The notes under the pieces: model-generated | What the model saw: only the letters and a program-made list of their open reading frames with translations | Databases searched by the model: none | What the model was told of the DNA's origin: nothing | Origin: Chitinivibrionia bacterium | Lineage (GTDB): Bacteria > Krumholzibacteriota > Krumholzibacteriia > WVZY01 | Length of the DNA: 5,097 nt | Reading direction: 5' to 3' | Assembly: GCA_016208665.1 (NCBI GenBank) | Contig: JACQXT010000005.1 | Span: forward strand, 2,835-7,931 | Made by a program: the position numbers and the translations under genes | Shown here: in pieces, positions 1 to 5,097 of the stretch | How the letters are laid out: each line of letters begins with the position of its first letter | How positions within the stretch are numbered: the first letter of the stretch is position 1

Positions 1-260
1 ACATGATCGATCGTAAGGTCCAAATCATAATACACGGCGTCGTAGCCGGTTTGATTCTCCGTCTGGGCTTGAACTGCGGCACTCGCGGCTGCGAAACGCT
101 CGGCCTTCTGCCGGGCAAGATCCCTTCTGAAATCGACGGGCCGCGGCCGCTGGGCATGCGACGTGAAAGGTGCGGCCAGAACGCCCAGCAGCATGGGCAA
201 TACGGCCAATCCGGGAGGGAGCATTCTCAAAGCCAGGGGTGCTCTCGTCTGCGCGTGCAT
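1..260 (-). CDS. Secreted M1-family metallopeptidase (aminopeptidase N-like), N-terminal fragment
   Basis: This is the 5' end of a minus-strand gene that runs off the left edge of the window, with 86 codons visible. The ATG at 260-258 is preceded by GAGG at 272-269 with an 8-nt spacer. The frame stays open upstream but has no other ATG, GTG or TTG before a TAG near 380, so this start is well supported. Residues 1-36 look like a signal peptide: an Arg-containing N-region, a hydrophobic stretch (GLAVLPMLLGVLAAPF) and an S-H-A cleavage site before Gln37. A charged, Ala-rich spacer follows (about 38-70). From residue 73 the protein reads YDAVYYDLDLTID, which resembles the first beta strand of the M1 peptidase N-terminal domain, usually written YDV-x-x-YDLxLxID. 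Those enzymes are zinc aminopeptidases. The HExxH zinc site would lie outside the window, so activity cannot be confirmed. The export signal places the product in the periplasm, outer membrane or outside the cell. Another secreted protein with a similar opening strand is possible. Confidence 0.62.
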   Translation of the reverse strand, partial: MHAQTRAPLALRMLPPGLAVLPMLLGVLAAPFTSHAQRPRPVDFRRDLARQKAERFAAASAAVQAQTENQTGYDAVYYDLDLTIDH

Positions 261-1904: not shown

Positions 1905-4283
1905 ATGGGATTAACATTCGGACCGCGCAGGGGCGTCTACATCGATATCGGCACGGAGCTCACACGGAACGGGAACCCGCTTTCGGCGGAGGAACTGAAG
2001 GATTTCGAGACGCTCGATCTCATCTATCGTTCGCTGTGCGGCCTTATGTACAACTATGTTCCCCTGTCGGGCCATCCCGGCGGATCGATATCGTCCGGCA
2101 GGTTCGTCGCCGCGATACTCTTCGATGCCCTTGATTACGATGTCGCCGATCCGGAACGGAAGGACGCGGACATCATTTCGTACGCCGCGGGGCACAAAGC
2201 GCTGGGTCTCTATGCGATGTGGGCGCTACGCAATGAAATCGTCAGGATCGGCGCTCCCCAGGCGCTCCCGTCGGATGTTCGTTATCAGCTCCGGCTGGAA
2301 GATTTGCTGGGATTCCGGCGCAATCCGACGACGAAGACGCCCCTATTCAGGAAATTCAAGGCCAAAGCCCTCGACGGACATCCAACGCCGTCCACGCCTT
2401 TCGTACGGCTCTCCACGGGGGCATCCGGCGTCGGAGTCGCGACGTCCCTCGGCCTCGCGTTCGGCGCCCTGGATTACTACGGCGATAACGCTCCCCGGGT
2501 TCACGTCGTCGAAGGAGAAGGCGGCATGACGCCGGGCCGCGTCGGCGAGGCGTTCGCCGCGGCGGGAACGGCGTCGTTGAAGAATGCGATCATCCACATC
2601 GATTGGAACCAGGCGTCCATCGACAGCAACCGCGTATGCCGGGACGGGGAAGTCCCCGGCGACTATGTGCAATGGACGCCCGCCGAGTTTGCGTATCTGC
2701 ACGATTGGAATGTCGTCTTCGTGCCCGATGGAAGAGACTTCCAGCAGATCGTCGCCGCGCAGCGGAAGGCGAGAGGACTCGATAACGGGCAGCCGACGGC
2801 CATCGTGTACAGGACGACAAAAGGATGGAAATACGGGATTGAGGGGAAAGCCTCCCACGGCGCCGGGCACAAGCTTTGCTCCGAAGGATTCTACGAAGCG
2901 GTTCGACCGCTGCTCGATCTCACGGGGGCGGCGCTGCCGGCGTGCGAATCCGGCTGCCAGCGCTGCGAGGGCGGGAACAAGCCGGACGTCGTCGAAGCGT
3001 GCTGCTATGAAGCGCTGCTGGTCGTTCGAAAGGCGCTCGAAGGCAACCACCTTCGGGTCCGCGATCTCGCCGGCCGCCTGCTCGGAGCGCGCGACAGGCT
3101 CGACGCGCTTTCCCGCAAACCGCGAACCGACGCTCCGGACGTCGGCGCCGTCTTCGAGGCGGCCGGGAAGAACGCGAAAAAGATACCCGATGATCTGGTG
3201 CTCGCGCCCGGGACCCAGACCACGCTTCGCGGAGAACTGGGCCGCGTTCTCAACCACTACAACAAGCTCAGCGGGGGCTCCATATTCGCGGCGGCGGCCG
3301 ATCTGCTCGGATCGACGAGCGTTCTCACCGCCGGAAAGGGATTTCCCGAGGGATACTACAATTCCGCCGCGAATCCCGGGTCGCGGATCCTGTCCATAGG
3401 CGGCATCTGCGAGGACGCCATGTCGGGCGTGCTCGCCGGCATGTCGACCTACGGGCGCCATATCGGGGCGGGATCGTCCTATGGGGCGTTTATTGCGGCG
3501 CTCGGCCATATCGCGTCCCGTCTGCACGCGATCGGAAATCAGGCGAAGCATGAAGTGTTCGGCTCCCCCTATCAACCGTTCGTCCTCATCTGCGCGCATG
3601 CGGGCGTGAAAACGGGCGAGGACGGCCCGACGCACGCCGATCCGCAGCCGCTGCAGCTCCTGCAGGAGAATTTTCCCTTGGGAACGATGATTACACTCAC
3701 GCCGTGGGATCCGCAGGAGTTGTGGGTGCTCATGACGGCCGCGCTCGCGAAGAGGCCGTGCATCATCGCGCCGTTCGTCACACGGCCCCCTGAAACCGTC
3801 GTCGACCGTGCATCGCTGGGATTCGCTCCCGTCGCCGCCGCCGCCAAGGGGCTCTACAAACTCAGCGCCGCCAAGCGGAAACGACCCGACGGCGCGATCG
3901 TAATACAGGGAAGCGAAGTTGCGTACGCGTTCATCGAGGTCGCGCTGCCGCTGCTCGAGCGGGAGGGAATAGACCTCGACGTGTACTACGTTTCGAGCGC
4001 CGAGCTGTTCGACATGCTGCCCCGAAAGCAGCAGGAAGCACTGTTCCCGCCTTCGGCTGCGGATAGAGCGATGGGCATCACCGGATTCACGCTTCCCACG
4101 ATGCACCGCTGGATTCGATCCGAGCGCGGCCTCGCGCATACGATGCACCCATTCCAGAAGGGGCGCTTTCTGGGAAGCGGGCAAGCCCACATGGTGCTCG
4201 AAGAGGCGGGGCTCGACGGGCGGAGCCAATTCAAGAGGATCGTGCAGTATGTGAAGGATCGGCGGCGAGGATGCTTTCCCTGA
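1905..4283 (+). CDS. Transketolase-family thiamine-diphosphate enzyme, long divergent form
   Basis: The product is a complete 792-residue protein with the three-part transketolase architecture. Transketolases move two-carbon ketol units between sugar phosphates in the non-oxidative pentose phosphate pathway, in the cytoplasm. In the N-terminal PP domain (about 35-330) I see SGHPGGSIS with His57, AGHK with His97, TGASGVGVATSLG (171-183), the cofactor motif G204-E205-G206 with Asn235 thirty residues on, and KASHG with His318. The Pyr domain (about 445-625) has ICEDAMSG with Glu503, the catalytic glutamate position, and GEDGPTHADPQ with His577. The C-terminal domain ends in KGRFLGSG (752-759), matching the usual end of the family. 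It differs from ordinary transketolases of about 620-670 residues in four ways: a ~110-residue linker (335-445) with Cys347, 351, 354, 366 and 367; Glu for Asp in the GDG motif; Pro210 where classical enzymes have a conserved Glu; and GHK instead of GHG. Family membership is secure, but the donor and acceptor sugars are not. It is probably expressed with the upstream aminotransferase. Confidence 0.9.
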   Translation: MGLTFGPRRGVYIDIGTELTRNGNPLSAEELKDFETLDLIYRSLCGLMYNYVPLSGHPGGSISSGRFVAAILFDALDYDVADPERKDADIISYAAGHKALGLYAMWALRNEIVRIGAPQALPSDVRYQLRLEDLLGFRRNPTTKTPLFRKFKAKALDGHPTPSTPFVRLSTGASGVGVATSLGLAFGALDYYGDNAPRVHVVEGEGGMTPGRVGEAFAAAGTASLKNAIIHIDWNQASIDSNRVCRDGEVPGDYVQWTPAEFAYLHDWNVVFVPDGRDFQQIVAAQRKARGLDNGQPTAIVYRTTKGWKYGIEGKASHGAGHKLCSEGFYEAVRPLLDLTGAALPACESGCQRCEGGNKPDVVEACCYEALLVVRKALEGNHLRVRDLAGRLLGARDRLDALSRKPRTDAPDVGAVFEAAGKNAKKIPDDLVLAPGTQTTLRGELGRVLNHYNKLSGGSIFAAAADLLGSTSVLTAGKGFPEGYYNSAANPGSRILSIGGICEDAMSGVLAGMSTYGRHIGAGSSYGAFIAALGHIASRLHAIGNQAKHEVFGSPYQPFVLICAHAGVKTGEDGPTHADPQPLQLLQENFPLGTMITLTPWDPQELWVLMTAALAKRPCIIAPFVTRPPETVVDRASLGFAPVAAAAKGLYKLSAAKRKRPDGAIVIQGSEVAYAFIEVALPLLEREGIDLDVYYVSSAELFDMLPRKQQEALFPPSAADRAMGITGFTLPTMHRWIRSERGLAHTMHPFQKGRFLGSGQAHMVLEEAGLDGRSQFKRIVQYVKDRRRGCFP

Positions 4284-4291
4284 AGCATTGA

Positions 4292-4309
4292 GCGCGCGGT
4301 CCGGCGCGC
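4292..4309. terminator. GC-rich hairpin between convergent genes, possible weak terminator
   Basis: GCGCGC (4292-4297) can pair with GCGCGC (4304-4309) around a 6-nt loop, in the 52-bp gap between the transketolase stop and the stop of the converging minus-strand gene. An outer inverted repeat, CTGAAGC (4280-4286) with GCTTCAG (4333-4339), overlaps both stop codons. There is no T-run on either side, so it is not a classical intrinsic terminator. Its role as a shared transcription end is inferred from position. Confidence 0.3.
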
Positions 4310-4335
4310 GCGGATACGGATCTGCAAGCGCCGCT

Positions 4336-4554
4336 TCAGCGGATCAGCACCATCTTGCGCGTCAGCGTCGTACCTCCAACCCTCATGCGGCACAGGTAAA
4401 CGCCGGAAGCGACGGCATTGCCCTGGAAATCCTTTCCGTCCCAGGAGACTTCCTTGGAGCCGAATTCGAGGCGATCGTCGAGGAGTGCCGCGACGAGCTT
4501 TCCCTCCAGGTCGTAGACGGACAGGTTGACATGCTCCCCGCCGGAGATCGGAAG
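4336..4554 (-). other. Out-of-frame FlgD-like / T9SS-type C-terminal domain of the secreted repeat protein
   Basis: In a different minus-strand frame from the repeats, 72 residues run from LPISGGEHV to a TGA at 4338-4336. They show the hallmarks of the FlgD-like immunoglobulin fold used as a C-terminal sorting tail: VYDLEGKLV (13-21), VSWDGKDFQGNAVASGVYLCRM (36-57) and a final TRKMVLIR. In FCB-group bacteria such tails accompany type IX secretion or cell-surface attachment. The frame has no start of its own, and its natural N-terminal partner is a protein like the repeat region upstream. The first beta strand usually seen before it (an NPFNPxTxIxFxLP-like linker) is absent, which suggests that sequence is missing at the join. 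Confidence 0.75.
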
Positions 4555-5097
4555 AGCACGGCGACGGGAAGTCCGAGCACGCCGTGGGCGTTTATATGTT
4601 GGGCGAAGATGTTGTAGTTATCGCCGTTTCTGTAATCGACCCACGCGAGGATAGCACCGCTCACGAAATGAAGGTCGGATACGAGCACCGGGCCGGTTTG
4701 GCCGTTCGAGGCGGTGCAAACGGCTATGGCGTTCGTGTTCCATTGTATGTCGCCGTCCGGATCGATTCGCTGGGCGTATATGTCGTTTTCGCCGCCGTTT
4801 CTCGTGTCCTCCCATGCGATGATGGCGCCGCCGGCGTCATCCGCGATCATGACGGGCGCTCTTGTTCCTACCAGCGACTGGACGCAGACGACGGGGATGC
4901 CGTTCGCAGCCCACCGAGCCGTTCCGTTTTCGGCGATGCGCTGCGCGTAGATATCGCAGCCGGCGGGAACCGTTCGGTGATCCGACCACGCGATGATCGC
5001 TCCCCCCGCTCCGTCGGCGCCTAATTTTTGCGAATCCTGCTTGTCGGTATCCGTGCAGACCGCTATCCCCGAGGCGTTCCACAGCGGCGCACCGTCG
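4383..5097 (-). CDS. Secreted repeat protein, C-terminal part, as read before and through the frame break
   Basis: This minus-strand frame enters from the right edge and is open for 237 codons plus a stop. Residues down to about 4560 form three tandem repeats with the signature GxxxW..NGIAVCT...GGAIIAW.D.R...DIYAQRI. Such repeats are common in secreted and cell-surface proteins of FCB-group bacteria, where they probably fold as beta-propeller-like blades. No enzymatic motif is visible, and the true start lies outside the window. After GVLGLPVA the frame runs into VLFRS (4559-4545) and then into low-complexity Ser/Arg residues, which is not a believable protein end. The believable continuation is in another frame (4336-4554). 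The last ~60 residues of this frame are therefore spurious, and the gene as shown is either frameshifted or misassembled. Convergent with the transketolase gene, it is unlikely to be functionally linked to it. Confidence 0.7.
   Translation of the reverse strand, partial: DGAPLWNASGIAVCTDTDKQDSQKLGADGAGGAIIAWSDHRTVPAGCDIYAQRIAENGTARWAANGIPVVCVQSLVGTRAPVMIADDAGGAIIAWEDTRNGGENDIYAQRIDPDGDIQWNTNAIAVCTASNGQTGPVLVSDLHFVSGAILAWVDYRNGDNYNIFAQHINAHGVLGLPVAVLFRSPAGSMSTCPSTTWRESSSRHSSTIASNSAPRKSPGTERISRAMPSLPAFTCAA
4545..4559 (+). other. 15-base match to the Illumina TruSeq adapter start at a frame break (probable assembly artefact)
   Basis: The plus strand reads AGATCGGAAGAGCAC, identical to the first 15 bases of the standard Illumina TruSeq read-1 adapter, after which the sequence departs from the adapter. 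On the minus strand it encodes V-L-F-R-S, exactly where the repeat protein leaves its sensible frame. Both the identity and the position suggest residual adapter in a chimeric read or join. Confidence 0.7.
4584..5093 (-). repeat. Three tandem repeats of about 57 residues (56, 57 and 57)
   Basis: The units are at 5093-4926, 4925-4755 and 4754-4584. Each opens GxxxW, continues with (N/S)(G/A)I(A/P)V and a Cys, has (A/S)GAI(I/L)AW(S/E/V)D at the centre and ends with (D/N)I(Y/F)AQ(R/H)I plus a three-residue turn. Further units very likely lie to the right of the window. The DNA copies have diverged, so these are protein-level repeats rather than recent duplications. Confidence 0.8.

Follow-up and report, generated by a model that had tools for sequence, protein, structure and literature searches.

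The 15 bases AGATCGGAAGAGCAC at positions 4545-4559 (+) of the window, by which we mean the whole stretch of 5,097 nucleotides analysed here, reproduce the first bases of the TruSeq read-1 adapter without a mismatch (15/15 bases, with a 13-base core at 4545-4557), as the sequence-only reading of this DNA had reported. We are highly confident that these bases are leftover adapter marking a former right-hand contig end which has been fused to a second piece, 4560-5097, and the join in all likelihood arose during assembly and is no feature of the living genome. The window corresponds to bases 2835-7931 of contig C224, which is 7931 bases long and belongs to a 1.86-Mb draft genome, split over 232 contigs and 66% complete, and the adapter match is contig-internal, lying about 540 bases from the real contig end, with similar G+C content to its left and right. 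The library insert would have ended at 4544, with the read running on into adapter that was then incompletely trimmed; the contig end extended in this way may have been fused, by the assembler or at a later merging step, to the piece carrying the repeat array, 4560-5097.

The window holds an aminotransferase gene (549-1847) and a transketolase-like gene (1905-4283), and its right-hand end comprises two minus-strand coding pieces in different frames with the 15-mer between them. The piece at 4336-4544 (-) is a FlgD-like / T9SS-type C-terminal tail, which scored above the curated cut-offs of both PF13860 (31.9 bits versus 27, stretch 4339-4557) and TIGR04183 (25.3 bits versus 23, stretch 4339-4542). 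The piece at 4560-5096 (-) is the end of the repeat array of a predicted secreted protein, made up of repeats of about 50 residues with a motif like DIYAQRI...GGAIIAW.D.R, and it runs off the contig end. The claim that the secreted repeat protein shifts frame at the 15-mer was borne out, as the repeat frame spans 5096-4560 and the tail is read in another frame, to a stop codon at 4336-4338. Passing both cut-offs and having many paralogues, the tail resembles the FlgD-like / T9SS-type tails that are found on predicted secreted repeat proteins, but unlike the others it has no NPF linker and differs in frame from the repeats.

The same genome gave 29 FlgD-like tail matches, this tail included, of which 27 were examined (this tail and 26 paralogues, with the weak or partial L043 and L044 left out). 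An NPF or NPY linker precedes the tail in all 26 paralogues, lying within the stretch first inspected in 25 of them and further upstream, in the same frame, in L038 (NPF-type), whereas none of the NPF type was found upstream of tail 4544-4336 in the tail frame; the strand that the sequence-only reading had described as missing before the FlgD-like domain is indeed absent. The distance from NPF to the domain core was 18 residues in 20/26 paralogues and 19 in three (L020, L022 and L026), with 31 and 45 residues in two further paralogues; the values for L020 and L022 were settled by eye because a second NP misleads the automatic count. Among the best 120 of 7997 candidate relatives, our script pattern found both linker and core within the last 160 residues of 46, with 45 of these 46 at a spacing of 18, while within the same limits 72 had no linker and two had no core.

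In a column comparison, the similarity of the tail to known tails ends at or inside the 15-mer. This comparison used 66 tails of standard spacing, 20 from the same genome and 46 others, the latter picked with a slightly wider pattern which took 46 at spacing 18. In the tail frame, the V, L, V, Y and D columns of the domain core fit on the near side of the 15-mer. At or beyond it, a column that is I in 63/66 tails is R in this tail, one that is T in 62/66 is also R, and one that is F or Y in 64/66 is L. The two hydrophobic columns coded by the 15-mer itself carry residues that are rare among the tails but do occur (1/66 and 3/66), and the G directly following it occurs in 0/66 tails in a column that is E in 33/66. 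On the repeat side, which codes for 179 residues, matches in some relatives extend to residue 178 or as far as 179, where the final codon abuts the 15-mer. The spacing might be taken to fix the end of the adapter at exactly 4545, the proline ahead of GGEHV then being native, but it is only suggestive and was not relied on; that reading of the register is weakened by the occurrence of P in 35/66 and S in 4/66 tails, and by a gapless L and I that fit 1 and 3 of 66.

The rarity of the match was assessed from copy numbers expected under a dinucleotide model of the window, counting both strands. For the 15-mer this gave 1.7e-5 copies per window, close to the figure of about 1e-5 given previously, and the next-best match in the window, with up to three mismatches allowed, was a single site with three mismatches. 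The 13-mer core is expected 4.5e-4 times per window and 0.17 times per genome, so the 13-mer alone is unremarkable genome-wide and its position is what counts; a pattern search found it in single copy in the whole 1.86-Mb draft genome. Beyond the core, identity to the adapter continues for two more read-1 bases before diverging, and a two-base match has a chance of about 1 in 16. A bare adapter match is weak evidence since many windows were presumably scanned, and an adapter match that falls on the gene-breaking point is stronger evidence than this.

Adapter words were then compared across a control set of 80 genomes of the same class, the genome under study included. The 13-mer occurred 20 times, in 10/80 genomes, and the reversed control pattern four times. 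Eleven of the 20 occurrences are found within 0-12 bases of a contig end, every one of them pointing outward; these adapter-bearing ends belong to four draft genomes, G042, G047, G057 and G063 (L181-L183, L185-L187 and L189-L193). In one of these genomes, 18 TruSeq read-1 bases were also seen abutting a stretch of N at a contig-internal scaffold gap (L179:617-634, G057:C26). Seven of the 20 are internal in other genomes, the site at 4545-4559 being the remaining one. One of the seven, L175, points inward at a distance of 218 bases from a contig end, and at 6/7 the surrounding open frame extends to the left and right of the site. The site at 4545-4559 also sits within a stop-free frame, of 237 codons, so an open frame by itself is not discriminating. 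In this class, then, draft genomes often carry adapter remnants, with the orientation seen at 4545-4559, the one expected where a contig ends on the right. The seventh internal site is a run of 16 read-2 adapter bases deep within its contig and flanked by minus-strand open frames, one on each side (L176:1501-1516, G009:C119:56579-56594), which may be a second embedded adapter remnant or may be due to chance.

Adapter at contig ends has been described as common in microbial genome databases, and for the MGnify genomes Moeller et al. 2024 describe the same excess, forward adapters being found at the ends of contigs and reverse ones at their beginnings (PMC11536531). The match at 4545-4559 resembles the Illumina TruSeq contamination set out there in having the same 12-13-base core and contig-ending orientation, together with the two further read-1 bases, but differs from those published cases, which are concentrated at contig ends, in being internal, about 540 bases in. 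The published remedy reaches adapters up to 300 bases from a contig end (PMC11536531); the present site, at about 540 bases, suggests that remnants lying deeper in a contig can escape it. This matters for data quality only, in that a gene model, domain fusion or neighbourhood read through 4545-4559 would be wrong.

The internal position, where most adapter cases are at contig ends, counts against an artefact, as do the single copy of a 13-mer with a chance expectation of 0.17 per genome, the ordinary appearance of the seven internal 13-mers in other genomes, the stop-free frame at the site, the occasional occurrence in tails of the residues coded by the 15-mer, and the misfit of the G that follows it. 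The change of frame had also been entertained as proof of a false join and was dropped, since two other genes of the assembly, a repeat-gene paralogue on contig C3 and a peptidase M1 gene, change frame without adapter. Frames in the assembly, or in the organism, are thus broken by other causes too, and what carries the case for leftover adapter is that an exact adapter match coincides with the loss of the linker. In the paralogue (L005, G000:C3) the frame changes within the repeats near contig base 2550, and the best adapter match within the surrounding 360 bases is 8/13. The peptidase M1 gene lies on the same contig as the site (window 3-260, -; L002:435-3148, -) and appears, from domain matches and third-position G+C, to run through three frames, with the start in one, PF17900 and PF01433 in the second and a FlgD-like tail in the third; the adapter core, being unique in the genome, is at neither of its frame changes, near 2840-2690 and near 1700 of the contig, and the gene is either broken or affected by base errors in the assembly.

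These other frame changes bear on the alternative that the gene is really broken, by a chromosomal deletion with a change of frame that left a linker-less tail out of frame with the repeats, the adapter match being a coincidence. Decayed genes may be present in a genome with other frame-changed genes, and natural 13-mers do exist, seven being internal in the 79 other genomes and 6/7 of them in open frames; a 15-mer expected 1.7e-5 times in the window nevertheless falls on the break, and the other frame changes are without the core, which has one copy in the genome. We consider a real broken gene very unlikely, and give equally little credence to a real join in an organism with several broken genes for secreted proteins, this one among them. 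Less probable again, to the point of being scarcely credible, is over-trimming, whereby a natural adapter-like word in the tail would have led trimming software to cut reads there, opening a gap that was closed wrongly. The word does code for A-L-P-I-S in the tail frame, loosely like the strand that comes before the domain, but a match at LP needs two residues beyond the common spacing (18 in 20/26 paralogues, 19 in three), and in a gapless alignment the residues coded by the 15-mer are rare in tails. Leftover adapter at a former contig end remains our preferred reading.

The sequence-only reading had gone further, to a chimeric join through the adapter after which 4560-5097 might not truly neighbour the rest; the part of this that stands is the carry-over of adapter at a false join, and on the foreign origin of 4560-5097 the evidence points both ways. 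A genuine chimera, with tail side and repeat side drawn from different genes or genomes, is a sub-case of the adapter join and does not exclude it, and we regard it as possible but rather doubtful. In its favour are the fragmented state of the assembly, 66% complete and in 232 contigs, and an orphan tail on contig C70, with which 4560-5097 might truly belong. The end of that contig cuts a repeat-tail gene within its middle domain, leaving the tail but no repeats (L206, at G000:C70:13630-13755; L026), and with such an orphan tail present a swap between paralogues is possible. On the other side, the G+C content is alike across the join and the right-hand piece is of the expected family, strand and order, all three other repeat genes of the genome keeping their last repeats and FlgD-like tail in one open frame (852 codons in C59, 840 in C193 and 391 in C3, although the earlier repeats of the C3 gene are in another frame than this one). 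Repeat-coding stretches in the right orientation amount, by our own estimate from the coordinates of repeat matches, to about 4 kb of 3.7 Mb of strand, or about 0.1%, so a random join would seldom produce the order seen. One gene with its middle lost fits better than a random join, and the tail and repeat pieces probably come from the same gene.

The size of the lost stretch may be anywhere from about 100 bases to 1 kb. Across the loci compared, an NPF-type motif comes 32 to 414 residues after the last repeat motif, the values being 241, 277 and 355 residues for the three paralogues named above and 32 for L056 of genome G015. A search of the same genome with the middle domain returned the truncated gene at the C70 end in addition to the three known paralogues, and a DNA search of it for a second copy of 4300-5097 found none, the best other match being 73% over about 90 bases.

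The comparison with related genomes that had been proposed as a check on the join was carried out over 99 loci, none of which offered an orthologous neighbourhood for comparison. A first search, of 43 of the 80 named loci, found neither the repeat part nor the tail; it was redone with all 80 named loci, the 19 transketolase-like loci and three positive controls, and the repeats were found in 0/99 loci (80 named and 19 transketolase-like). In a set of 5.8 billion proteins, the best 120 of 7997 candidates included no intact same-species copy, with identities of at most 48%. The transketolase-like neighbour was matched in 19/19 genomes, the one under study included, with at least 56% identity in 12 of the 19 (again including it, and with three partial matches) and only distant matches in the others. 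The tail was found in 6/99 loci (L129, L134, L135, L138, L139 and L142) at 28-43% identity; the nearest of these, in L138, is without repeats and lies about 0.7 kb past the transketolase-like gene, at 34% identity.
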